The notes below the pieces were generated by a model that did no database searches, was not told the DNA's origin, and saw only the letters and a program-made list of their open reading frames with translations. Positions 9,078-30,651 of a stretch of DNA of 64,000 bases are shown here, piece by piece (within the stretch, counting starts at the first letter, position 1; the number at the start of each line of letters is the position of its first letter). Position numbers and translations under genes: made by a program. This stretch comes from Acidobacteriota bacterium (GTDB taxonomy: Bacteria; Acidobacteriota; Blastocatellia; HR10), in the NCBI GenBank assembly GCA_030550025.1, contig JAUQQC010000007.1, forward strand, positions 95,198 through 159,197, in the 5' to 3' direction.

Positions 9078-9599
9078 ATGTCACCAGCTCGACACTTCAC
9101 GTTTTGGTGGCTGAGTCTGATTCTGCTGCTGAGCGTTACGGCGCTGGGCCGAGTCGCCACCGGCCAGCAAGTCGGCGGTGACGCCAGACACCCCAACGAC
9201 CGCTCAGATGCCGTCGCGCGCACAATGCAGGTGGCGCAACGAGCCTTCGACCACTTCCGGCGCGGGTTGGCTACAGGCCAATGGCAGCCATTTTTGGACA
9301 TGTTGAGCGATGATTTCACGTTCTACTTCCCGACAGGCAAGTACCAAGGCCTCCATGTCGGCAAGGCGAAGGCAGCCGAATTTTTCCACTATGTGGCCTC
9401 AGTGTTTACCGAAGGTGTCCAGATCACCGAGGTCCTGCGCGTGACGGCCGATGAAAAGACCGTGGTCTTCGAGTTCCGAGACGAAGGCAAGCTGCACGGC
9501 CAGATGTACAAAAATCGTGTGGCCGTGTCGTTAGATGTGTGCGGCGATAAAATCTGCGGCTATCGCGAATACTTCGGCAGCGATGGGAAGTCCAATTGA
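9078..9599 (+). CDS. Secreted SnoaL-like (NTF2-fold) protein
   Basis: 173-residue protein with an N-terminal signal peptide ('FTFWWLSLILLLSVTALG') and a SnoaL / ketosteroid-isomerase-like domain of about 120 residues ('HFRRGLATGQWQPFLDMLSDD'). A good ribosome site (AAGGAGAG) precedes ATG 9078. The domain is about 69% identical (85 of 123 positions, counted by hand) to the C-terminal domain of the iron-sulfur protein at 27301-28791, and both end in 'REYFGSDGKSN'. NTF2-fold proteins range from isomerases and cyclases to simple binding proteins, so the function is open. It is probably periplasmic. Confidence 0.75.
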   Translation: MSPARHFTFWWLSLILLLSVTALGRVATGQQVGGDARHPNDRSDAVARTMQVAQRAFDHFRRGLATGQWQPFLDMLSDDFTFYFPTGKYQGLHVGKAKAAEFFHYVASVFTEGVQITEVLRVTADEKTVVFEFRDEGKLHGQMYKNRVAVSLDVCGDKICGYREYFGSDGKSN

Positions 9600-9721
9600 A
9601 GTGGCCCGCGCCAGGTGCCCGGAACGCGCGGCAGGTCAGGGAGCAACTGATCACCGGACAACCGGTTACTGATCCGGTGAGCTGTAAGCCACCAAGCCAC
9701 CGATTTCACCGATTTTCACTG

Positions 9722-11065
9722 ATGATTGATCGTCGTCAATTTCTCGGCGCGATGACAGTTGCGCCGCTGTGTCGCGCGCTTGATGTGTCATCCCTGGCTC
9801 AGACCGACGGCGATGACGATGAGGCATTTTGGGCCGGCGTGCGCCGCGAGTTCCGGCTCGATCCGCATCACGTGTTTCTCAACACGGGGACGCTTGGCTC
9901 GTGTCCGCGCGTGGTCAGCGAGACGGTGATCGAAGCCATGCGGATGATGGATGAGCGGCCCACCTACGGCTACTGGGCGCGCGGCATGCCCAGCGCCGAA
10001 CGGGTGCGACAGCAGGCCGCAGCCCTGCTCGGCGCCGAACCCGTCGAGGTGACCATCACGCATAGCACCACGGAGGGCATCAACATCGTCGGTCTGGGCC
10101 TGGACTGGCGGCCGGGCGATCGAGTCTTAGTCAGCACCCATGAGCATCCGGGCGGCCGGGCGATCTGGGATTTTCTGCATCACCACCGAGGGATTGAGGT
10201 GGACTTCGTTGATGTACCGCTGTCGCCCAAGAGCGCGGATGAGATTGTGGAGTTGATTCAGCGCCAGATCAGCTCCCGCACGCGGTTGGTGGCCGTCTCC
10301 CACATTCTCTATTCCACTGGCTTAGTGATGCCGGTCAAGGAGATCGGCCAGGTCGCTAAACAGGCTGGAGCGCTGTACCTGGTTGACGGCGCGCACCCGG
10401 TGGGACTGCTGCGGGTCAATGTCAAGGAGATCGGCTGCGATTTTTATGCAGCCAGCGGACATAAGTGGTTGTGCGGTCCGCGCGGCACCGGGTTACTCTA
10501 TGTGCGTCAGGAGCACCTGGAGCGATTACACCGCTTCGTTCACGCCTACTCGGAGCATCGAGTGCCGGCGGATGTGGGGACGCTTGATCGCCAGGTCAGC
10601 CGATTGAACTTCGTCTGGACCAACAATCTTCATGACATTCTCGGTCTGGGGGCGGCCATTGAGTTTCACCAGCGCCTTGGTCCAGACCGTGTCTATGCCC
10701 GCAACATGGCGTTGATTAACCGGCTGAAAAAGGCCGTCGTGACTATTCCTGGCGTCGAATTGATTTCGGCGTTTGACGGCGCTATGGCTTCGCCAATGGC
10801 CACGCTGCGGCTTATCGGCAAAAGCAATAAGGACGTGTTCCAGCGGTTGCGCGACCACTACCACATTACGGTCAAGGAGGTAGCCGATGCTGAATTGCCT
10901 CAGCCGCTCAACGCGATCCGCGTCTCCGCACATATCTACAACACCCCAACCGAGATCGACCGATTCGCTGCCGCCTTACACGACGTGATGACCGAACCCT
11001 TAGGACCCATTTCAAAACCGTCTTGGTTCTGTGGTGGACTGGAGGCATGGCATGGAGGGGATTAG
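9722..11065 (+). CDS. Tat-exported class V aminotransferase (isopenicillin-N epimerase-like), 3' end altered by an IS
   Basis: PLP-dependent class V aminotransferase-fold enzyme. I start it at ATG 9722 because the following 'MIDRRQFLGAMTVAPLC' is a twin-arginine leader (RRQFLG). PLP landmarks are 'THSTTEGIN', 'LVDGAHPVGLL' (Asp and His) and 'AASGHKWLCGPRGTG' with the Schiff-base Lys. Exported members of this group are usually labelled isopenicillin-N-epimerase-like, with unknown substrates. The gene runs into the left end of IS copy 1: native sequence stops at about 'HDVMTEP' and the last ~20 residues ('ISKPSWFCGGLEAWHGGD') are encoded by the IS. Only the tail appears replaced, so activity may survive. 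Confidence 0.8.
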   Translation: MIDRRQFLGAMTVAPLCRALDVSSLAQTDGDDDEAFWAGVRREFRLDPHHVFLNTGTLGSCPRVVSETVIEAMRMMDERPTYGYWARGMPSAERVRQQAAALLGAEPVEVTITHSTTEGINIVGLGLDWRPGDRVLVSTHEHPGGRAIWDFLHHHRGIEVDFVDVPLSPKSADEIVELIQRQISSRTRLVAVSHILYSTGLVMPVKEIGQVAKQAGALYLVDGAHPVGLLRVNVKEIGCDFYAASGHKWLCGPRGTGLLYVRQEHLERLHRFVHAYSEHRVPADVGTLDRQVSRLNFVWTNNLHDILGLGAAIEFHQRLGPDRVYARNMALINRLKKAVVTIPGVELISAFDGAMASPMATLRLIGKSNKDVFQRLRDHYHITVKEVADAELPQPLNAIRVSAHIYNTPTEIDRFAAALHDVMTEPLGPISKPSWFCGGLEAWHGGD

Positions 11066-11847
11066 CTGATGAACAGTGGCAGAGGGCTCGTGTTCATTTA
11101 CCGTCGTCCAAGCTGCAGCCCAAGGGGGGCCGACCCTGAGGCGATGACCGCCGATGCTTTGAGGGGATCCTCTGGATCTTGTGGACTGGAGCTCCTTGGA
11201 GGGAGCTGTCGCGCCGGTATGGTAGCCCCAGCAGCTGCTGGCGAAGGCTCAAGCAGTGGGAAGAGTCTGGTGGGCTGCTTGAGCTGTGGTGGGCATTCTT
11301 GGTCCAGCTCAACGGCTAACAGAAGATCCGCTGGGATGAGTGCCTTGCCAAGGGCAGCCTTGCTCCGGCCAAAGAAGGGGGCCCAAGGTGGGCAAGACCA
11401 AAAGGGGAAAGGGCACGAAGTGGCTGGTTTTGGTCGGTGGCGCGAGGACTCCGCCGAGAGCATACTTGGACTCGGCATCCCTGGCGGAAGGCCTGCTCTT
11501 GGAGAAGACCCTCGACACAGTGGCGATAAGGCGAGCAGGCAAGCCCGGACGGCCCCGCAAGCGGGTGATTGCCGATGGCGCTTTCGACAGCACTCCCTTG
11601 CGCCGGCGATCGAAGCGGCGGGGGACAGAGCCGATCATCCCCGCACGGCGCAACCACCCCACTGCCACCGATCAGGATGGGAGGAAGTTGCGCCGCTACC
11701 GGCAGTGGATCGTGGGGTGAACCTTTGCCTGGCTTGGGCATTTTCGGCACCTGGTGGTGCGCTATGAGCGGCTCTTTCTCACCTATGCCGGGTCCTTTCA
11801 TCTGGCGTGTGCCTTGCTCACCCTTCCAAAGGTTTGGAAATGAGTTC
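11003..11847 (+). mobile_element. IS5-family element, copy 1 (defective)
   Basis: 845-bp insertion sequence identical as far as I can see to copy 2 at 29807-30651. The terminal inverted repeats are imperfect (left GGACCCATTTCAAAACC, right end read in reverse GAACTCATTTCCAAACC; 14 of 17 match). It is flanked by TA on both sides (11001-11002 and 11848-11849), a TA target duplication that implies the original site was CTTAAG. The transposase type (IS5 family, IS427-like) comes from the encoded protein fragments. The transposase has several lesions, so the copy cannot move by itself. Confidence 0.85.
11047..11843 (+). pseudogene. IS5-family transposase, multiply disrupted (copy 1)
   Basis: Reading from ATG 11047 ('MAWRGLADEQWQRARVHLP'), the transposase is broken by TGA where 'GRPW' is expected, then continues 'RCFEGILWILWTGAPWREL' to a TAA after 'LVQLNG'. 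A frame change follows around 'SLAPAK', giving 'PKVGKTKRGKGTKWLVLV'. Finally 'WIVG-stop-TFAWLGHFRHL' shows a TGA where 'IVERTFAWLG' is expected. Some IS427-type elements use programmed frameshifting, so the frame change alone may be natural, but the stops are not. The ORF-track entries over this region (11069-11767, 11340-11720 and others) are pieces or wrong frames. Confidence 0.85.
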
Positions 11848-16221: not shown

Positions 16222-17562
16222 ATGAAGACCACCATAAGCCATCTGTGGTCGGCCGGCCGTCTGATTCTTGTCCTGCAGTTGATCGTCTCTGGGACAGCGA
16301 AGAGTGGCCTTACGACCAGCTCACTCTCTCAGGCTGGAACTTCAGCCACTCCCTTGAGAGACGGGTTGCTGAACCCACAAACTGTTGAACCCATCACCAC
16401 CGAAGAATTTCAGGCTCTGCTGAAGCGGTGGCAAGGGAACGTCGTGCTGGTGAATCTGTGGGCTACCTGGTGTGTTCCTTGCATTCGCGAATTCCCCGAT
16501 CTATCCAAGCTGCAGGAGCAGTATGGCGAGCGGGGGGTGAAGGTGATCGGAATTTCACCGGATGAGCCGGATGCGCTCCGGACGAAGGTGAAGCCATTTG
16601 TCCAGGAGCGGTCGCCCTGCTTTGCCACCTATCATAGCCAAGAGCCTGACTCGGAGAAGTTCATCGCTCACTTGGATCCCGGATTCAATGGGATCATCCC
16701 CACAACCTACGTATTGGACCGGCAGGGCAAGCTGAAGGCGACGTTGATGGGCCGGAAAACCTACGAAGAGTTCGAAGCGGTGGTCAAGCCACTATTAGAA
16801 GCAACCAACGATCCACTGGCTGGTGCGTCAGCTATTGAACTGGTGCGGGCAGCTATTGCCGCTCATGGCGGCCAGGCGTTTCACCATCCCCGGTCTATCC
16901 AACTGAAAGGACGCGCCGTCTACCACCCTCTGGATGGGAGTCCCGACATTCTTATTGACAGCCTGACCATTACCCGTCTAGTGCCTCAGGCCAGCATCTC
17001 GGCGCGCAATCCGGGCGGCAAGCTGCGTGTCGAAGCTTGGGTCAACGGTCGCCTTTTCTTTCGTCAGGGCTACGACGGAACGAAACTATGGTCGGAGGTC
17101 GGTGACCAGGCCAGGCCCATTGCCGAATATCTGCAATTGGACCGCCACTTCGGATTCGGCATCATTCGATTTGCGGAAACGCCGGGATTCGTCGTTGAAC
17201 GATGGGCCGATGATGAAGTGGAGGGGCGGCCTGCTTATCATATCTCCATCACAGACCTGGAGAAGCGCCGTACGGATTTTTGGATTGACAAAGAAACGCG
17301 GCTCATCCATAAGGTGGCCTTCGACACGCTGTCCGGTCACCATGAGCGAATTTACTGGCCCTACGACCTGAAGGATGAGGTGAAGGAGGCACGCCGGGTC
17401 AAGCTCATTTTTCGAGGACACACGTTATTTGACGTGATGTGGGATACGGTCACCTACAACCTGGACTTCCCGCCAGACTTTTTCGACCCTCCGGCTGATG
17501 CGCTCTTGCTTCGCCAAACAGTGGGGGCAGATGAGAAAGCAAAGGTGGGAAGGCAAAAGTAA
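16222..17562 (+). CDS. TlpA-type thioredoxin fused to a LolA-like beta domain, exported
   Basis: 446 residues: signal segment ('LILVLQLIVSGTAKSG'), then a thioredoxin-fold domain of the TlpA/ResA type (about residues 55-190) with 'NLWATWCVPCIREFPDLSKL' as redox centre, then about 230 residues rich in beta strands. The second part ('IELVRAAIAAHGG...IQLKGRAVYH') resembles lipoprotein-sorting LolA or outer-membrane-assembly folds that bind lipids. Start ATG 16222 follows GAGGTAAAGC. The two-domain arrangement suggests thiol redox or heme-related work on an extracytoplasmic partner; the lipid-binding idea is inference. The final residues 'KAKVGRQK' are encoded by the AAAGGCAAAAG intergenic word, which also gives the stop. 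Confidence 0.7.
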   Translation: MKTTISHLWSAGRLILVLQLIVSGTAKSGLTTSSLSQAGTSATPLRDGLLNPQTVEPITTEEFQALLKRWQGNVVLVNLWATWCVPCIREFPDLSKLQEQYGERGVKVIGISPDEPDALRTKVKPFVQERSPCFATYHSQEPDSEKFIAHLDPGFNGIIPTTYVLDRQGKLKATLMGRKTYEEFEAVVKPLLEATNDPLAGASAIELVRAAIAAHGGQAFHHPRSIQLKGRAVYHPLDGSPDILIDSLTITRLVPQASISARNPGGKLRVEAWVNGRLFFRQGYDGTKLWSEVGDQARPIAEYLQLDRHFGFGIIRFAETPGFVVERWADDEVEGRPAYHISITDLEKRRTDFWIDKETRLIHKVAFDTLSGHHERIYWPYDLKDEVKEARRVKLIFRGHTLFDVMWDTVTYNLDFPPDFFDPPADALLLRQTVGADEKAKVGRQK

Positions 17563-17597
17563 AACGCAACCCTTTGCTTTCGAATCACCATTCCGTG

Positions 17598-18887
17598 ATG
17601 GATGGTACTTATCAATCAGGATCGATCACCCGCCTAATTGGTCCATCGGCGGTTGATTATCCCCGACTTGAACTCACTCGGCGTTCATTTCTCAAAGGCT
17701 CAGCCTTAGGAGCCACCGGCTTGATGCTGACGTATGCCTCGCCGGCTCTGCTTCATGCCGAAACCGTTCCGGTGGCTCGATACGATGGGGTTGAGGACGT
17801 ATATCGCCAGAATCGGCAGTCGATTGTTGAGGGAAGAGTGATGGAGACGAGCGCGGAAACAATGACCTCATTTCGAGCGTTAGCGCTGCAGGTGACTTGC
17901 CATGCCGTCAATCAACTCCCCAACCGCGAGCAAGCGAGAGCGCGCATGCGCCAGACGTTGGAGCGTCTCCGACGCCTGATTCCAGCCAGCCTAGCCTGGG
18001 TCGGCCAGGATACTCGATTGGTAGTCCTTCCTGAGTATTTCCTGACGGGATTCCCCGTGGGTGAGACCATCGAAGAATGGGCCCAGAAAGCGTGCTTGGA
18101 ACCCGATGGTCCTGAGTATGAGATGTTGAGCCGGATCGCTGAGGAAAATAAGATCTTTCTGGCTGGTAATGCCTATGAGTTGGATGCTCATTTTCCAGGG
18201 TTGTATTTCCAAACGAGCTTCATCATTGACGGGACGGGTCGTGTCGTACTGCGTTATCGCCGACTCAACTCGATGTTCGCGCCAACGCCGCACGATGTCT
18301 GGGATCGCTACCTTGATATCTATGGTTTGGAGGGCGTCTTTCCTGTGGCACAGACGGAGATCGGACGGCTGGCAGCAGTGGCCTCCGAGGAGATCCTCTT
18401 CCCAGAGCTGACGCGCTGCCTAGCTATGCGCGGCGCGGAGATTATCGTCCATTCCTCGTCTGAAGCGGGTAGCCCCCGACCGACCCCTAAGGGGATCGCT
18501 AAGATCGCTCGAGCTATCGAGAATTCGGTCTATCTCGTTTCCGCTAACTCTGCTGGGATAGAGGGCAATAATATGCCCAGCCGCTCAACCGATGGTGGCT
18601 CCATGATCGTTGATTATCGCGGTCAGGTATTGGCGGAGGCCGGTCCGGGTGAAAGCCTCGTAGCACATGCTGAGATTGATCTGGCTGCCTTGCGCCGCTG
18701 GCGTCGCCGACCCGGGATGGACAATTTGCTCTCACGCCAACGCTTCGAGTTGTATGCCGAAAGTTATCGCCAGTTTCACTTTTATCCGGCCAACACGTTG
18801 CTCCATGGGATAACCGACCGAAGTCATTTCATCAAGACCCAGAGGGAAACTATCGAGAGATTGGTCCGGGAAGGGGTAATTTTATGA
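17598..18887 (+). CDS. Nitrilase-superfamily protein with a grafted Tat leader and no catalytic Cys
   Basis: Carbon-nitrogen hydrolase fold from about 'FRALALQVTCHAVNQ' onward. The Glu is in 'VVLPEYFLTGFP'; the Lys position reads 'LRYRRLNS' (Arg); the nucleophile position reads 'AVASEEILFPE', Ser where C-x-x-x-x-F-P-E is usual. So it may not hydrolyse nitriles or amides by the standard route. The N-terminus is a Tat leader ('LTRRSFLKGSALGATGLML') followed by 'HAETVPVARYDGVEDVYRQ', almost identical to the start of the molybdoenzyme at 23691. Start is uncertain: ATG 17598 gives the Tat form; ATG 17841 ('METSAETMTSF') gives a plain cytoplasmic nitrilase. Its stop overlaps the ATG of the aldehyde dehydrogenase by four bases. 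Confidence 0.75.
   Translation: MDGTYQSGSITRLIGPSAVDYPRLELTRRSFLKGSALGATGLMLTYASPALLHAETVPVARYDGVEDVYRQNRQSIVEGRVMETSAETMTSFRALALQVTCHAVNQLPNREQARARMRQTLERLRRLIPASLAWVGQDTRLVVLPEYFLTGFPVGETIEEWAQKACLEPDGPEYEMLSRIAEENKIFLAGNAYELDAHFPGLYFQTSFIIDGTGRVVLRYRRLNSMFAPTPHDVWDRYLDIYGLEGVFPVAQTEIGRLAAVASEEILFPELTRCLAMRGAEIIVHSSSEAGSPRPTPKGIAKIARAIENSVYLVSANSAGIEGNNMPSRSTDGGSMIVDYRGQVLAEAGPGESLVAHAEIDLAALRRWRRRPGMDNLLSRQRFELYAESYRQFHFYPANTLLHGITDRSHFIKTQRETIERLVREGVIL
17671..17812 (+). repeat. 142-bp segment duplicated from the molybdoenzyme 5' end
   Basis: Aligns without gaps to 23704-23845: 125 of 142 bases match. Only 2 of about 46 encoded residues differ (Thr/Lys and Asp/Arg). The matching part lacks the molybdoenzyme's own start codon and ribosome site. 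Confidence 0.85.
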
Positions 18888-20356
18888 GCGAACGGTTAGG
18901 TGTGCGCAATCCTAGGACGGGGCAGATCGATTATTGGATCACGCCACCGACGGCATCGGAGCTTGCCGACCTCTGTGCGCGATTGCGTCAGGGGCAACCC
19001 GGTTGGTGGCGGCTTGGGCTAGCGCAGCGCATCCAAGTCATGCAGCGGTGGAAAGAGATCGTGCTGGAGCATCGGGATGAGCTGATCGCCGCGCTGAGCA
19101 CCGATACCGGGCGGCTCAGGGAGTCCGTGATCGAAGTGGATTCAGTCCCGTTAATGATTGATTGGTGGTCAAGGGTAGCCCCAGAGGTCCTATCCACAGG
19201 TCAGGAGCAACTCACTTCCATCTCGTTCATTAGGATGAGAAGAGAGTTTGTCCCTTATCCCTTGGTGGGAGTCATTAGCCCCTGGAATGTTCCTCTAGCC
19301 CTGTCGCTCATTGATACGATTCCCGCACTCCTGGCCGGTTGTGCGGTGGTGGTCAAACCCAGCGAGGTGACGCCTCGGTTCATTCGACCGCTGACCCATA
19401 CCATTGAATTAGTGCCCGAGTTGCGCCAGGTATTGCAGTTTGTGGAAGGAGGGGGCGAAACCGGTGCTGCCTTGATCGAGTACATTGATCTGGTTTGTTT
19501 CACCGGTGGTGTGAAAACTGGTCGTCAGGTGGCTGAGGCGGCGGCTCGTCGCTTCATCCCGGCCTTTCTCGAGCTGGGCGGCAAAGACCCCGCCGTGGTG
19601 CTGGCCTCGGCCGACATCGAGTTGGCCACGTCGGCCATTCTGTGGGGAGCGACGAGCAATGCTGGGCAGAATTGCTTGGCGATTGAGCGCATTTACGTAG
19701 CCGAGTCCATCTTCGATCGGTTTGTCGAACAACTGGTAGACAAGGCGCAGCGCGTCCGGTTGGCTTATCCATCGTTCGAAGATGGCGAGCTTGGTCCGAT
19801 TATTGCCGAGCGGCAGGCGGCCATCATCCAAGAGCATTTGCAAGATGCCGTCCAGAAAGGTGCTATGGTTCACTGTGGTGGGACCATTGAACATCTTGGT
19901 GGGGGTCTGTGGTGTCGGCCTACAGTCCTGACCCACGTCAATCACTCGATGAAGGTGATGACTGAGGAAACCTTCGGTCCGCTGATGCCTGTTATGCCAT
20001 TCGCCACTGTAGAAGAAGCCATCCATCTGGCTAACGACACCATCTATGGACTCAGTGCCGCCGTCTTTGCTGGTTCTGAAGACGAAGCGCGAGCTGTGGC
20101 TGAGTCGTTGGACGCTGGTAGCATTAGTATCAATGATGCTGCACTGACAGCGGTCGTACGGGAAGCTGAAAAGAATTCATTCAAAGCCTCAGGCCTGGGT
20201 GGGTCACGCATGGGGCCATCGGCCATCAAACGATTTGTGCGGCAAAAAGCGCTCTTGATTAAGAAGGAACCGATCTCGGATCCGTGGTGGTTCGATGCGA
20301 TCAAAATCGGTAGCCAGTCGTCGGCAGCTGGTCTTCAACACTTGGTCACCAGTTGA
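18884..20356 (+). CDS. NAD(P)-dependent aldehyde dehydrogenase
   Basis: 490-residue aldehyde dehydrogenase of normal length. Motifs in order: 'VGVISPWNVPLAL' (oxyanion Asn), 'VVVKPSEVTPRF' (cofactor Lys), 'VCFTGGVKTGRQ', 'FLELGGKDPAVV' (general base Glu), 'SNAGQNCLAIERIYV' (catalytic Cys) and 'EETFGPLMPV'. It is cytoplasmic and oxidises an aldehyde to an acid. The start overlaps the nitrilase stop (ATGA), so the two are translationally coupled. An acyl-CoA ligase follows after a small gene, giving a plausible aldehyde to acid to CoA-thioester series. The C-terminal 'LQHLVTS' runs into an intergenic repeat word. Confidence 0.92.
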   Translation: MSERLGVRNPRTGQIDYWITPPTASELADLCARLRQGQPGWWRLGLAQRIQVMQRWKEIVLEHRDELIAALSTDTGRLRESVIEVDSVPLMIDWWSRVAPEVLSTGQEQLTSISFIRMRREFVPYPLVGVISPWNVPLALSLIDTIPALLAGCAVVVKPSEVTPRFIRPLTHTIELVPELRQVLQFVEGGGETGAALIEYIDLVCFTGGVKTGRQVAEAAARRFIPAFLELGGKDPAVVLASADIELATSAILWGATSNAGQNCLAIERIYVAESIFDRFVEQLVDKAQRVRLAYPSFEDGELGPIIAERQAAIIQEHLQDAVQKGAMVHCGGTIEHLGGGLWCRPTVLTHVNHSMKVMTEETFGPLMPVMPFATVEEAIHLANDTIYGLSAAVFAGSEDEARAVAESLDAGSISINDAALTAVVREAEKNSFKASGLGGSRMGPSAIKRFVRQKALLIKKEPISDPWWFDAIKIGSQSSAAGLQHLVTS

Positions 20357-23690: not shown

Positions 23691-26426
23691 ATGAAAGGTC
23701 CTAAACTCACTCGACGCTCATTTCTCAAAGGCTCAGCCTTGGGAGCCACCGGCTTAATGCTGAAGTATGCTTCGCCAGCTCTGCTTCATGCTGAGACCGT
23801 TCCAGTGGCTCGGTATAGAGGGGTCGAGGACGTGTATCGCCAGAAATGGACTTGGGATAAGGTGGTGCGGGGGACGCACGGGACCAATTGCGCCGGGGCC
23901 TGTGCCTTCAATGTCTACGTCAAAAACGGCATTGTCTGGCGCGAGGAGCAACAGGCCGAATATGAAGCCTCTGGCGATGCCCCCGACTACAACCCGCGCG
24001 GTTGCCAAAAGGGCTTGTGCCACTCGTCCTATATGTATGGGAAGCAGCGCATCCTCTATCCGATGAAGCGGGTGGGGCGACGTGGCGAAGGGAAGTGGCA
24101 GCGCATCAGTTGGGAGCAAGCCTGTCGGGAGATTGCCGATCGGTTCATTGATATATCGGTCAAGTACGGACCTGACGCCATCGGCATGGGTAGCGGCACC
24201 CAGATGGTCATCAAGTTTGGAACATTGGCAGCCTTCTTGCGGTTCGCAGCGATTACCGGCATTTCTGTGCCCGAGTATTACTCGGGCGTGGGCGACCTGC
24301 CGACGGGCGCTTACATGACCTTAGGGACGCCGACAGTGGGCGATACGATCGCGGCCGTCTTCAAGTCCAAATACATTCTGATCTGGGCAGCGAATCCGGC
24401 TGTCTCCCGGATACCCGACGCCCACTTCTTCTGGGAAGCCAAGTATAACGGCGCGAAGGTCGTCGCCATCTGTCCGGAATTCAACGCTACAGCCATGCAC
24501 GCTACCCATTGGCTTAATCCCCGGCCAGGCACGGACTTAGCGTTGGTCCTGGCTATGATTCATACGGTCATCGAGGACAAATCCTACGATCGTGAGTATA
24601 TCATCGAACAGACCGATTTGCCCTTCTTAGTGCGGACCGATACCCACCGCTTCCTTCGAGAGAGCGATTTTCTGCAGGACGGCCAGGTCGAGGTCTTTTA
24701 TGTGTGGGATCAGCGAACGGGGCAGCCCGTCAAAGCTCCGACCACCACATTGCGACTGGGCGACCTCCAGCCAAGCTTGGAAGGCCGATGGAAAGTTCAA
24801 ACGCGGGACGGCCTCGTTGAGGTGACGACCGTCTTCGAGTTGGTGAAGCGCAAGATGGCCGATTACAGCCCAGAGTGGGCATCTGGTGTGACTGGACTTC
24901 ATCCCCAAGTCATTCGGCAGATCGCGCGTGAATTTGCCGCCACTAAGCCAGCCATGATTTACACGGGGTATCAGGCCTGTAAGTGGCTTCATGGTGACCT
25001 GATTCACCGAGCCATGCTTTTGCTTCTGTCACTGACGGGCAATATTGGCCCCGAGGGGAGTGGACTACAAATTCTCAATTCTGTCCGGGCTGATGGTCTC
25101 TTTGCTTTTGCCTTTGCCGGAATTGATCCCACCCTTCGCATGGTTTCGGGCACTACCTGGGATTATGAAAAAGGTAACATGAAACAGCTCAACGAGCAGG
25201 TTTATGGGAAGGACCTAGCCCAGGTGATAGATACTCACTACCAGACGAGCATTCGCCAGGGGTGGTTTCCTTCCTACGCCAAGCAGGGTTGGAAGATGGG
25301 CATCTTCGCCGGCAATGGCAGTCCCGGCTGGGTGGCTTCAGCTAAGCAGTGGAGGGAAGAGGCGTTTGACAAGTTGGAGACTATAGTCGTGATGGCACCT
25401 GACATGGGCTTTGCTGCCCATCATGCTGATTATGTGCTACCCATTGCCCACCACTACGAACGGGTGGATATAATGTTCCATGCACGGCTTCCCTACATCC
25501 AGGTGCTGGATGCGGCTGTGCCACCATTGGGAGAGGCGGTGGATGATTGGACGGCGATGTATAGACTTCTGGCTGCCATCAGCAAGCGAGCCAAGCAGCG
25601 CGGCATCAAGCCCATTGAGGATGTCGTTGACGGTCGCACCGTCAAGCGCGATTTCACGAAGTACTTGGATCTGTACACCATGAACGGTCAGATCAAGGGC
25701 ATCCGGGATGTCATCCAGTTTGTGCTGGACCGGACTCCGGGCGTGCCCAAAGTCACGGTTGAGGAGCTGGCGGCCCGGGGTATAGTGCGCGTCAAGGGTT
25801 CTGACTCGACGATGTGGGGTTCGCCTGAGTCACCCTATCACACAGATATCACTGACAGCGTGGTGCACAAGCGACCATACAAGACGATGACTGGTCGGCA
25901 GCAATTCTACTTTGACCACGACTGGTTCATTCAATTCGATGAAACGCTGCCTACCTATAAAGAGCCCTTGCGGCTGGAGCGATATCCACTCCGGTTCATC
26001 ATGGGCCATGCTCGACATGGAGTTCACACCATGTGGCGGGATCATCCGTTGTTGCTGCAATTGCAGCGCGGCGAGCCCGACGTGTATGTGAGCGCCGAGG
26101 ATGCGGCTCAGCGAGGCGTCCGGGATGGGGATCTGGTGCGGGTCTTTAGCCCAGCCGGTGAGTTCATTGCCCAAGCCCACATTAGTCATGGTGTTCAGCC
26201 GGGCATGGTCTTTATGTATCATGGCTGGGACCCTATGATGTTTCCAACTCGCCATAACTTTTCCTCCGTTATCTGCAGCGGCGGTTTAATCAAACCGACC
26301 TCGGTGGTCGGTGGGTACGGCCACCTAGGGCATCGCTTACTACAGTTTGCGCCTAACCAAACCTATCGGGACTTCACCGTAGATTTTGAGCGGTATCAAC
26401 CCGTTACCCCACAGGTGAGTCGGTAA
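23691..26426 (+). CDS. Type II DMSO-reductase-family molybdoenzyme, catalytic alpha subunit (Tat-exported)
   Basis: 911 residues behind a strong GAGGAGGA site. The Tat leader 'TRRSFLKGSALGATG' ends near 'HAETV'. The FS0 cluster motif reads His-x3-Cys-x3-Cys ('THGTNCAGACAF') with a later 'CQKGLC'; first-position His is typical of type II enzymes (ethylbenzene, dimethylsulfide, selenate and (per)chlorate groups, NarG). A candidate Asp ligand to Mo is in 'YSGVGDLPTGAY'. Also typical are 'REYIIEQTDLPFLVR', 'MYHGWDPMMF' and 'GGYGHLGH'. The enzyme binds bis-MGD and probably works in the periplasm with the iron-sulfur subunit at 27301. The surrounding dehydrogenase and ligase genes favour anaerobic hydroxylation of an organic substrate over anion reduction, but this is inference. 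Confidence 0.9.
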   Translation: MKGPKLTRRSFLKGSALGATGLMLKYASPALLHAETVPVARYRGVEDVYRQKWTWDKVVRGTHGTNCAGACAFNVYVKNGIVWREEQQAEYEASGDAPDYNPRGCQKGLCHSSYMYGKQRILYPMKRVGRRGEGKWQRISWEQACREIADRFIDISVKYGPDAIGMGSGTQMVIKFGTLAAFLRFAAITGISVPEYYSGVGDLPTGAYMTLGTPTVGDTIAAVFKSKYILIWAANPAVSRIPDAHFFWEAKYNGAKVVAICPEFNATAMHATHWLNPRPGTDLALVLAMIHTVIEDKSYDREYIIEQTDLPFLVRTDTHRFLRESDFLQDGQVEVFYVWDQRTGQPVKAPTTTLRLGDLQPSLEGRWKVQTRDGLVEVTTVFELVKRKMADYSPEWASGVTGLHPQVIRQIAREFAATKPAMIYTGYQACKWLHGDLIHRAMLLLLSLTGNIGPEGSGLQILNSVRADGLFAFAFAGIDPTLRMVSGTTWDYEKGNMKQLNEQVYGKDLAQVIDTHYQTSIRQGWFPSYAKQGWKMGIFAGNGSPGWVASAKQWREEAFDKLETIVVMAPDMGFAAHHADYVLPIAHHYERVDIMFHARLPYIQVLDAAVPPLGEAVDDWTAMYRLLAAISKRAKQRGIKPIEDVVDGRTVKRDFTKYLDLYTMNGQIKGIRDVIQFVLDRTPGVPKVTVEELAARGIVRVKGSDSTMWGSPESPYHTDITDSVVHKRPYKTMTGRQQFYFDHDWFIQFDETLPTYKEPLRLERYPLRFIMGHARHGVHTMWRDHPLLLQLQRGEPDVYVSAEDAAQRGVRDGDLVRVFSPAGEFIAQAHISHGVQPGMVFMYHGWDPMMFPTRHNFSSVICSGGLIKPTSVVGGYGHLGHRLLQFAPNQTYRDFTVDFERYQPVTPQVSR

Positions 26427-26525
26427 TCCGTGATCCGTAGGCAGAGATCAGTTAACAGTGAGGCAAGGATCCATGATGGGACTCTTGATCGCTGACTATT
26501 GATTACCGGTGACGTATCACTGGCC
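26427..26525. repeat. Intergenic repeat-word cluster
   Basis: 'ccgtgatccgtaggcagag', 'gatcagttaacagtgag', 'gatcgctgactattgattac' and 'ggtgacgtatcactggcc' between the alpha-subunit stop and the chaperone. Confidence 0.6.
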
Positions 26526-26532
26526 GAGAATC

Positions 26533-27249
26533 ATGGGCAACGAACGGCAAACAAACTCCGAGGCCAAATTGAGGAGCATCACCTACGCACTCTTTTCGCA
26601 ATTGACTGCCTCTCCCTATGAAGCTGCGTCGGCAGTCCTGGTACTGCCTCCAGCCGACATGCCGACGGTGCTAGACGAGCTTCAGCAAGCGCTCCCTTAT
26701 CCCGTTGATTTTTCGACGCTGATCGAAGTGGCCCAGAGGCTCTCGTCAACTGATGCTGAGTCCTTACGCCAGGATTATGCTAGCTTGTTTGAGGTCGGAT
26801 CGGATGGTCCTCCTTTACCTATTCGGGCTGAACTCGCGCGAGGGCGTTCGCCAGAGCGGAAGGAAGAGCTGGTCCGGTTCTATGAGTTCTTTGGTTATAA
26901 GCTACAACCCTCCTGGCAATGGGCTCCTGATCATCTGTCCGTTCTGCTTGAGTTCATGCACTTTCTCACCTATCAAGAGAGCCAGTTGTCCGAAGCTGAT
27001 GACATTGCATCGTATCGAACAGCCCAGCGGGATTTCTTGGAGCGCCATATTCTCGATTGGTACGATCAGATCCCAAGGGGGATGTCTAATCTAACCTTGG
27101 AGATATCCCCCATCTCATCGACTTACTATCAAACCCTGTTTGAAACCTTGGGCAAATTCCTCCATCTGGATTTTGCCTGGCAGCAGAAAAACCTAGGGGG
27201 TAGCCTTCGGTCCTCAGTGGATGAGTCATCACTGATCACTGGTTACTGA
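26533..27249 (+). CDS. TorD/DmsD-family chaperone for the molybdoenzyme
   Basis: 238-residue mostly helical protein of the TorD/DmsD/NarJ group, which binds the Tat leader and helps insert the molybdenum cofactor. Features: 'LRSITYALFSQLTASPYE', 'LRQDYASLFEVGSDGPPLP' (family D-Y-x-x-L-F) and 'APDHLSVLLEFMHFLTYQE' (family PDHL..EL.FM). Start ATG 26533 ('MGNERQ') is preferred to the upstream GTG lying in repeat words. It sits between the alpha and iron-sulfur subunit genes, as in EbdD- and DdhD-type operons. The C-terminal 'DESSLITGY' is encoded by an intergenic repeat word. Confidence 0.85.
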   Translation: MGNERQTNSEAKLRSITYALFSQLTASPYEAASAVLVLPPADMPTVLDELQQALPYPVDFSTLIEVAQRLSSTDAESLRQDYASLFEVGSDGPPLPIRAELARGRSPERKEELVRFYEFFGYKLQPSWQWAPDHLSVLLEFMHFLTYQESQLSEADDIASYRTAQRDFLERHILDWYDQIPRGMSNLTLEISPISSTYYQTLFETLGKFLHLDFAWQQKNLGGSLRSSVDESSLITGY

Positions 27250-27300: not shown

Positions 27301-28791
27301 ATGAGCCGACAGATCGCCATGGTCATAGACTTGAATAAATGCATTGGTTGCCAGACCTGTACGGTTGCCTGCAAGACGCTATGGACGGATGGGGCTGGTC
27401 AGGAGACGATGCTCTGGAATAATGTGGAGACGGTTCCTGGTCAAGGCTATCCTCGTAATTGGCAAAACATGGGCGGAGGTTGGAAGGAAGGTGAATTGAG
27501 TTTCGGCGAGCTGCCTGCCGAGGAGGATTATGGTAAACCTGTGGAATTGAACTATCGCGAAGTTTATCAAACTGGTAAGGACTACTATCTACATGCTAAA
27601 GAGAAGATGACTTGGGGGCCCAACTGGGATGAAGATGTGGGTGCGGGAGTCTACCCCAATAATTACCATTTCTATCTGCCTCGGCTCTGCAATCATTGCA
27701 CTCACCCAGCTTGTTTGGAAGCGTGCCCAGTCCGTGCCATTTATAAACGAGAGGAGGATGGAATTGTCCTCATTGATGAGAAGAAATGCCAAGGTTTTCG
27801 AGAATGCATTCGTGCCTGCCCTTACAAGAAGATTTATTTCAACTCGGTCAAGGGCGTGTCGCAAAAGTGCATCTTCTGTTTTCCCCGCATCGAAAAGGGG
27901 ATAGCTCCAGCGTGCGCCCGACAATGTCCCGGACGGTTGCGGTTTGTGGGCTTTTTAGATGACCCGACCGGGCCTATCTACCTGTTGGTGCACAAGTGGC
28001 AGGTAGCCCTACCACTGCATGAAGAATATGGTACACAACCAAATGTGTTTTACGTGCCCCCCTTATTGCCCGACGCCTTTGATGAAGAAGGGCGATTTAG
28101 CGAAAAACCGCGGATCCCGCTCGAATATCTGCGATTTCTCTTTGGCCCCCGAGTGGACTCAGCCTTGGCCACCTTGAAAGCCGAAATGGCCAAACGTCAA
28201 CGTGGAGAGCCATCTGAGCTTATGGACTTGCTAATCGCCAAGGACTGGAAGTCGTTGTTCAAAATTCCGAAGGTCATCGCGGTGCTGCTTATCAGTCTGC
28301 TGACCATCACCACGAACCTGGGAGCTACAGGCTTCAAGGCCAACGCTCCTGCTGGTGTGCTGACCACTCCCACAATGGGTGTTCTCATGGGTGGAAAAGA
28401 CCAGTCTGCCAAGACGTTGAAAATAGCCAGAGCTGCTTTCGAGCACTTCAAGCATGGCTTAGCCACGGGCCAGTGGGAGCCGTTCCTGGGGATGTTGACA
28501 GATGATTTCACGCTCTACTTTCCCACCGGAAAATATCAGGGTCTCAATGTGGGAAAGGCTAGGGCGGCAGAGTTCCTTCGCTTCGTATCTGAGACGTTTA
28601 AGGAGGGGTTGCTCATCACCGAGGTCATTAGCGTAACCAGCAGTGCTACGACGGTTGGGTTTGAATGTCGCGTTGAGGGGAAGCTTGGTGAGCAACCTTA
28701 CAAGAACCGGGTGGCTATCTTCCTGGACGTGTGCGGTGACAAAATTTGCGCGTTCCGCGAGTACTTCGGTAGTGATGGCAAGTCTAATTGA
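27301..28791 (+). CDS. Iron-sulfur beta subunit of the molybdoenzyme, fused to a SnoaL-like domain
   Basis: 496 residues from ATG 27301 behind AAGGAGGAATAG. About residues 1-320 are an EbdB/DdhB/NarH-type four-cluster ferredoxin: 'CIGCQTCTVACKTLW', 'LCNHCTHPACLEACPVRA', 'CQGFRECIRACPYKK' (Phe replaces a Cys, as in the [3Fe-4S] site) and 'CIFCFPRIEKGIAPACARQCPG'. Then comes a hydrophobic stretch that looks like a signal peptide ('VIAVLLISLLTITTNLG'), a short linker and a 120-residue SnoaL-like domain about 69% identical to the secreted protein at 9078-9599. The frame is continuous. Beta subunits of this family normally end after the ferredoxin part. The fusion may tether a second activity to the enzyme; topology is unclear because the ferredoxin part should ride out with the Tat-exported alpha subunit. 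Confidence 0.9.
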   Translation: MSRQIAMVIDLNKCIGCQTCTVACKTLWTDGAGQETMLWNNVETVPGQGYPRNWQNMGGGWKEGELSFGELPAEEDYGKPVELNYREVYQTGKDYYLHAKEKMTWGPNWDEDVGAGVYPNNYHFYLPRLCNHCTHPACLEACPVRAIYKREEDGIVLIDEKKCQGFRECIRACPYKKIYFNSVKGVSQKCIFCFPRIEKGIAPACARQCPGRLRFVGFLDDPTGPIYLLVHKWQVALPLHEEYGTQPNVFYVPPLLPDAFDEEGRFSEKPRIPLEYLRFLFGPRVDSALATLKAEMAKRQRGEPSELMDLLIAKDWKSLFKIPKVIAVLLISLLTITTNLGATGFKANAPAGVLTTPTMGVLMGGKDQSAKTLKIARAAFEHFKHGLATGQWEPFLGMLTDDFTLYFPTGKYQGLNVGKARAAEFLRFVSETFKEGLLITEVISVTSSATTVGFECRVEGKLGEQPYKNRVAIFLDVCGDKICAFREYFGSDGKSN

Positions 28792-29757: not shown

Positions 29758-29806
29758 GCGAGCAATCGGTGATCGGTAATTAGGGGTCGGTGAGTCTAAA
29801 TCGCTA

Positions 29807-30651
29807 GGACCCATTTCAAAACCGTCTTGGTTCTGTGGTGGACTGGAGGCATGGCATGGAGGGGATTAGCTGATGAACAGTGGCAGAGGGCTCGTGTTCA
29901 TTTACCGTCGTCCAAGCTGCAGCCCAAGGGGGGCCGACCCTGAGGCGATGACCGCCGATGCTTTGAGGGGATCCTCTGGATCTTGTGGACTGGAGCTCCT
30001 TGGAGGGAGCTGTCGCGCCGGTATGGTAGCCCCAGCAGCTGCTGGCGAAGGCTCAAGCAGTGGGAAGAGTCTGGTGGGCTGCTTGAGCTGTGGTGGGCAT
30101 TCTTGGTCCAGCTCAACGGCTAACAGAAGATCCGCTGGGATGAGTGCCTTGCCAAGGGCAGCCTTGCTCCGGCCAAAGAAGGGGGCCCAAGGTGGGCAAG
30201 ACCAAAAGGGGAAAGGGCACGAAGTGGCTGGTTTTGGTCGGTGGCGCGAGGACTCCGCCGAGAGCATACTTGGACTCGGCATCCCTGGCGGAAGGCCTGC
30301 TCTTGGAGAAGACCCTCGACACAGTGGCGATAAGGCGAGCAGGCAAGCCCGGACGGCCCCGCAAGCGGGTGATTGCCGATGGCGCTTTCGACAGCACTCC
30401 CTTGCGCCGGCGATCGAAGCGGCGGGGGACAGAGCCGATCATCCCCGCACGGCGCAACCACCCCACTGCCACCGATCAGGATGGGAGGAAGTTGCGCCGC
30501 TACCGGCAGTGGATCGTGGGGTGAACCTTTGCCTGGCTTGGGCATTTTCGGCACCTGGTGGTGCGCTATGAGCGGCTCTTTCTCACCTATGCCGGGTCCT
30601 TTCATCTGGCGTGTGCCTTGCTCACCCTTCCAAAGGTTTGGAAATGAGTTC
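29807..30651 (+). mobile_element. IS5-family element, copy 2 (defective)
   Basis: Second 845-bp copy, matching copy 1 at a constant offset of 18,804 bases, with the same internal stops. It is flanked by TA at 29805-29806 and 30652-30653 (original target GCTAGG), unlike copy 1's flanks, so it arose by transposition and not by a larger segmental duplication. Confidence 0.85.
29851..30647 (+). pseudogene. IS5-family transposase, multiply disrupted (copy 2)
   Basis: Same structure and same lesions as copy 1: TGA at the expected Trp of 'GRPW', TAA after 'LVQLNG', a frame change near 'SLAPAK', and TGA within 'IVERTFAWLG'. The ORFs listed at 29873-30654 are fragments or wrong frames of this pseudogene. 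Confidence 0.85.

Follow-up and report, generated by a model that had tools for sequence, protein, structure and literature searches.

Copying of a Tat leader from a molybdoenzyme alpha subunit in frame upstream of a nitrilase-like gene in an Acidobacteriota bacterium

In the EbdABD and PcrAB systems of the type-II DMSO reductase family the genes for an alpha subunit, a beta subunit and a chaperone of the NarJ/TorD type are found together, and alpha carries a Tat leader. Beta carries none and is co-exported with alpha. It is established that chaperones of the NarJ/TorD type bind their substrates at the Tat signal (PMC10609526). Signal peptides can be gained when an entire N-terminal region is inserted, as in a survey of Enterobacterales that described 34 gains of Sec signals (PMC5952966). 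There, as in the case reported here, one lineage of a leaderless orthologous family gained a complete N-terminal signal. Yet Tat proteins had been removed from that survey, whereas the present signal is of the Tat type and its donor was identified within the cluster, 6 kb further downstream. The donor belongs to the EbdABD/PcrAB-type systems; while we found no unrelated protein with an alpha leader in the papers searched, the nitrilase-like protein described here has one. The leader copy is the Tat version of a known kind of signal-peptide gain, with the donor identified. Reports of Tat-signal gains whose donor is identified appear to be rare, and our searches of the literature on nitrilases with Tat or ethylbenzene dehydrogenase and on signal-peptide gain found no account of a leader-nitrilase fusion.

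The window, i.e. the whole stretch of 64,000 nucleotides that was analysed, contains a molybdoenzyme cluster with genes for alpha, a chaperone and beta downstream of the nitrilase-like gene (Table 1). Alpha matched TIGR03479 over its full length with 894 bits, which is below the cut-off of 984.75, and its nearest solved structures were PcrA (perchlorate reductase) and EbdA (ethylbenzene dehydrogenase). Judged by the profile match alpha is a divergent relative of the type-II DMSO reductase alphas.

Table 1. Positions of the leader copy, its donor and the neighbouring features in the window.
Feature	Coordinates	Strand	Evidence or remark
TlpA-like thioredoxin gene, directly 5' of the nitrilase frame	16222..17562	+	MFS1 next in G006; Nit2, MFS1 in G008
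Nitrilase-like protein; 429 aa and Tat leader if read from ATG 17598	17598..18887	+	Open frame, PF00795, PF10518
n-region (MDGTYQSGSITRLIGPSAVDYPR), no Shine-Dalgarno site before ATG 17598	17598..17670	+	No similarity elsewhere in the genome
Copied segment: Tat leader and the first ~17 residues of mature alpha	17671..17812	+	125/142 identity
5' flank of the nitrilase gene with Shine-Dalgarno TTGAGGG for ATG 17841	17813..17840	+	SD energy -6.1
Nitrilase-fold core (Nit1 family), ancestral start	17841..18887	+	Relatives match only from 17841 on
Aldehyde dehydrogenase gene, usual 3' partner of Nit1 genes	18884..20356	+	
Molybdoenzyme alpha subunit, type-II DMSO reductase family, donor gene	23691..26426	+	TIGR03479, 894 bits
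Donor segment of the leader copy	23704..23845	+	Alignment to 17671-17812
TorD/EbdD-like chaperone	26509..27249	+	TIGR03482 E 3e-25, PF02613
Iron-sulfur beta subunit, reading through into a SnoaL-like domain	27301..28791	+	TIGR03478 E 3e-159, SnoaL_2

The copied segment aligned without a gap to the 5' region of the alpha gene with 125 of 142 bases identical, and 15 of the 17 differences were transitions. A match of this length and of 88% identity lies far beyond chance. The segment corresponds to alpha codons 5-51 with the reading frame kept. Synonymous changes were present in 13 codons and amino-acid changes in two, i.e. Thr in the nitrilase copy for Lys in alpha at 17730 by a single base and Asp for Arg at 17784 by all three bases of the codon. 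Directly beyond both ends identity dropped to chance level. As the first matching bases are the last ones of alpha codon 4, the alpha start codon and its strong Shine-Dalgarno site were not copied. At the 3' end the match stops after alpha Gln51, directly ahead of the conserved KWTWDK; cleavage is likely between HA and ET, and about 17 copied residues follow this site. The first-pass annotation had given the same gap-free match with 17 changes, about 13 of them silent, and the same two residue exchanges; it had also placed the start of the match within the alpha gene, without a start codon or ribosome site, and about 16 copied residues past the cleavage point. The alignment confirmed these points, and the proposed duplication from the molybdoenzyme onto the nitrilase-like protein proved real. 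The direction of copying is from alpha to the nitrilase, because the alpha leader is homologous to the leaders of other alphas while nitrilases of the Nit1 family have none. A search of the whole genome returned the two segments only; there was no third copy, nor was the leader found on any other gene of this genome.

The alpha search covered 162 genomes of the class and detected a close alpha only in G006, G008 and G009, which belong to the same order, and in the window genome. The Nit1 proteins of these three genomes are 75-77% identical to that of the window and, like nearly all Nit1 homologs, start at the equivalent of 17841 without a leader. Thus, the leader is a gain in the window lineage, and on the genomes compared it is most readily described as a lineage-specific gain of a Tat signal with a known donor. 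The order of genes in G006 is TlpA, MFS1, Nit1, aldehyde dehydrogenase, DUF3598, acyl-CoA synthetase and amidohydrolase. The window is colinear with it except that MFS1 is missing and 278 bases including the leader copy are in its place. G008 and G009 share the order TlpA, Nit2, MFS1, SnoaL-like gene, Nit1. Nit1 is directly preceded by an MFS-type transporter gene in G006 and by a short SnoaL-like gene in G008 and G009. No orthologs of MFS1 and Nit2 were found in the window genome. A relocation of MFS1 within this genome was considered and rejected, as only distant MFS proteins are encoded there.

When further copies of the leader were sought in G006, G008 and G009, only their own alphas matched at meaningful E-values, and no second genome with a leader-nitrilase fusion was found among those compared. 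The first-pass annotation had held that related nitrilases starting at the 17841 position behind a decayed upstream segment would speak against its reading. The relatives do start there, but the upstream segment is absent, not decayed. Among about 75 distinct loci of Nit1 homologs one other upstream Tat-like leader was present, in the gammaproteobacterium L094, and it is unrelated to that of the window (L094:9143-11041, a Nit1-family member; FTRRDFLGIGGAAAAG). Nit2, a second nitrilase-fold gene of the corresponding cluster in G008 and G009, has its own Tat-type leader. Thus exported nitrilase-fold proteins in such clusters are not without precedent. The Nit2 genes (L026:6841-8079 and L113:9353-10510) directly follow TlpA, and the catalytic Cys was absent from them as well in the alignment.

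The frame is open from ATG 17598 through 18887 into the nitrilase. Its translation matched CN_hydrolase (PF00795) with an E-value of 3e-35 and TAT_signal (PF10518) with 4.5e-4, the latter slightly below the curated cut-off. The features of a Tat substrate are present, namely the twin-arginine motif S/T-R-R-x-F-L-K, a hydrophobic core and a cleavage region (LTRRSFLKGSALGATGLMLTYASPALLHA followed by ET); TRRSFLK, core and cleavage region are all retained in the nitrilase copy. By these features the leader on the nitrilase-like protein is an intact Tat signal, and the genome encodes TatC (G000:C14:7535-8428, 236.7 bits). In the predicted structure residues 1-86 of the long form were of very low confidence and outside the fold, which began at residue 90. 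The n-region upstream of the copy had a low GC3 and a codon usage within the coding range, as read from a short stretch. For the stretch of 108 bases from the end of TlpA to the leader copy (17563-17670) no relative was detectable in the window genome; a remnant of the lost MFS gene was tried as their source and rejected, since the similarity did not exceed that of shuffled controls.

The two possible starts differ in their ribosome sites. ATG 17598 has no Shine-Dalgarno site, with a duplex energy of 0.1 that is worse than the random median of -3.1. Because TlpA ends 36 bases ahead of it, re-initiation is possible. ATG 17841 is preceded by TTGAGGG with an energy of -6.1 and a spacer of 7, like most neighbouring genes, and the relatives carry GAGAGGG or GGAGAAGAG at the equivalent place. 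The 17813-17840 stretch is likely the native flank of the nitrilase gene; it showed no sequence match to the flanks of the relatives, local alignments being not above shuffles. No promoter or terminator was found by consensus in 17450-17900. As 17841 keeps its Shine-Dalgarno site and 17598 is without one, a cytosolic form or both forms are possible. The simplest reading of the start sites would be two products, one with and one without the leader.

The selection on the leader copy was assessed from its codon changes. Nei-Gojobori counts for the leader pair gave a dS of 0.43 and a dN of 0.040, and 13 of the 15 changed codons were silent (Fisher P 2e-5). For a nitrilase branch that evolved neutrally from the resident alpha about 19 changed residues were expected and two were observed (P at most ~0.001 by simulation). 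For the nitrilase branch maximum likelihood gave an omega of about 0.15. On the other hand, the alpha leaders of the congeneric G008 and G009 gave a dS of 0.41 and a dN of 0.041. Because the window pair has diverged like two alpha orthologs, constraint on the nitrilase side is unproven. A model with recent capture of a diverged alpha leader and a short neutral nitrilase branch thereafter fitted as well as the selection model. Against the relatives silent sites were too saturated (dS >1.7) for the 13 silent changes to be polarised. Three of the four non-silent base changes sit in one codon. This codon encodes the Arg replaced by Asp, an Arg shared by all of eight alphas with identities down to 40%; thus, the change to Asp most likely arose in the nitrilase copy, which speaks for evolution of this copy itself with its other residues kept. 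Taken together the codon data lean towards constraint on the nitrilase side without proving it. Of the selection in both places proposed by the first-pass annotation, the rejection of neutral drift after a duplication in situ stands, while constraint on the nitrilase copy itself does not follow from rates that equal those between two alphas.

We consider it somewhat more probable than otherwise that the in-frame copy of the alpha leader gives a formerly cytosolic nitrilase-like protein access to Tat export, with a leaderless form also possible. The Tat leader and the first mature residues of alpha were copied in frame upstream of the nitrilase-like gene, into the position that an MFS transporter gene occupies in relatives. 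The Tat signal would be read from ATG 17598, most likely reached by re-initiation after TlpA, and at least part of the product would be exported through Tat, the alpha chaperone possibly protecting the leader. The start at 17841 with its retained ribosome site could still yield a leaderless cytosolic form. Export of the nitrilase-like protein is likely, then, in the window lineage alone.

An alternative that we regard as possible, if doubtful, is that the segment came from another, diverged alpha, i.e. an old paralog or that of a related species, too recently to have decayed, and that the nitrilase is made from 17841 and stays in the cytosol without any function of the leader. The equality of the leader rates with those of the G008 and G009 alphas, the equal fit of the short neutral branch and the presence of a Shine-Dalgarno site at 17841 only are in line with it. 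Yet it requires a second alpha lineage that is now missing from the genome, each of the eight alphas has Arg where the nitrilase copy has Asp, an exchange that takes two or more base changes in the latter, and the frame and the upstream start are intact. That two alpha-like copies differ as between species in a metagenome-type genome of 29 contigs might also point to an assembly artefact, a chimeric join having set the alpha leader of a related species beside the nitrilase gene. This is very improbable, because a chimera would continue alpha on one side, whereas the 142-base segment is sharp-ended with non-alpha sequence on both sides; moreover, the frame is kept and the synteny with G006 runs on at both sides.

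Other readings accept the leader as made and differ in its role. It might be regulatory, i.e. titrate or sense the TorD-like chaperone or couple translation to 17841 without export, as the chaperone family binds the Tat signal of its substrate (PMC10609526), the leader and chaperone genes share a cluster and the internal start at 17841 is good. Nothing specific speaks against it, but simple export accounts for both the intact leader and the frame open into the nitrilase; we deem the regulatory role improbable. The mature residues ETVPVARY..GVEDVYRQ had been proposed as a possible recognition or docking tag, which would hold the nitrilase-like protein together with the molybdoenzyme or with beta. 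The extension of the copy by about 17 residues into the mature part, with most of the motif retained, would fit, but the motif opens the conserved YRGxEDxYR-x-WTWDK of mature type-II alphas, the copy stops before WTWDK, its invariant Arg is now Asp and the segment was unfolded in the structure model. A docking tag is therefore unsupported and we give it very little credence; passive inclusion explains the copied mature residues.

A wider version of the export reading, which we think rather unlikely, takes the loss of the transporter and the gain of the leader as a single adaptive swap, in which the protein was moved to the periplasm in place of import of the substrate, the TorD-type chaperone is shared and the internal start keeps a cytosolic pool. 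If this were true, a single TorD-type chaperone would serve both a molybdoenzyme and a protein that has no cofactor. The donor and the recipient of the leader copy can be seen, and so can the ancestral locus. If the leader works, the locus would offer a natural experiment on whether the chaperone of a molybdoenzyme accepts cargo without molybdenum behind its own leader, and on how proteins switch compartment in evolution.

The nature of the cargo itself was investigated by alignment and structure comparison. With the nitrilase superfamily, e.g. aliphatic amidase, formamidase and N-carbamoylputrescine amidase, Nit1 has the fold and the catalytic Glu in common, but Ser and Arg replace the catalytic Cys and Lys. 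In 95 sampled rows from many phyla, aligned to 1f89 for the triad positions, Ser occupied the Cys position in 95/95, Lys was replaced, by Arg in nearly all, and Glu was retained. The CN_hydrolase domain and fold are present, but the Glu-Lys-Cys triad of catalytic nitrilases is not. A Foldseek search with the predicted structure of the nitrilase-like protein matched 2uxy with an E-value of 3e-21, and also amidases, formamidase and nitrilases. Because of the exchange of Cys/Lys for Ser/Arg an activity of the usual type is doubtful and the names amidase or nitrilase are unsafe. The protein may bind instead of hydrolysing, or may use another chemistry. We found no description of the Ser/Arg clade in the literature on inactive nitrilases. 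Nit1 is a widespread nitrilase-fold family, and its gene often adjoins an aldehyde dehydrogenase gene.

Some further features of the cluster were observed. In the beta gene a signal-peptide-like stretch at about 28270-28345 precedes the SnoaL-like domain with no stop between, and in G006 and G008 beta stops short of this stretch. A separate SnoaL gene (9078-9599) is about 68% identical to the SnoaL-like domain fused to beta. The product of a class-V aminotransferase gene (9596-11065) also begins in a Tat-like manner (MIDRRQFLGAMTV...). Finally, identical copies of an apparent transposase-type element at 11001-11300 and 29805-30104 (onward), 100% identical over the 300 bases reported, flank the cluster in a composite-transposon-like arrangement.
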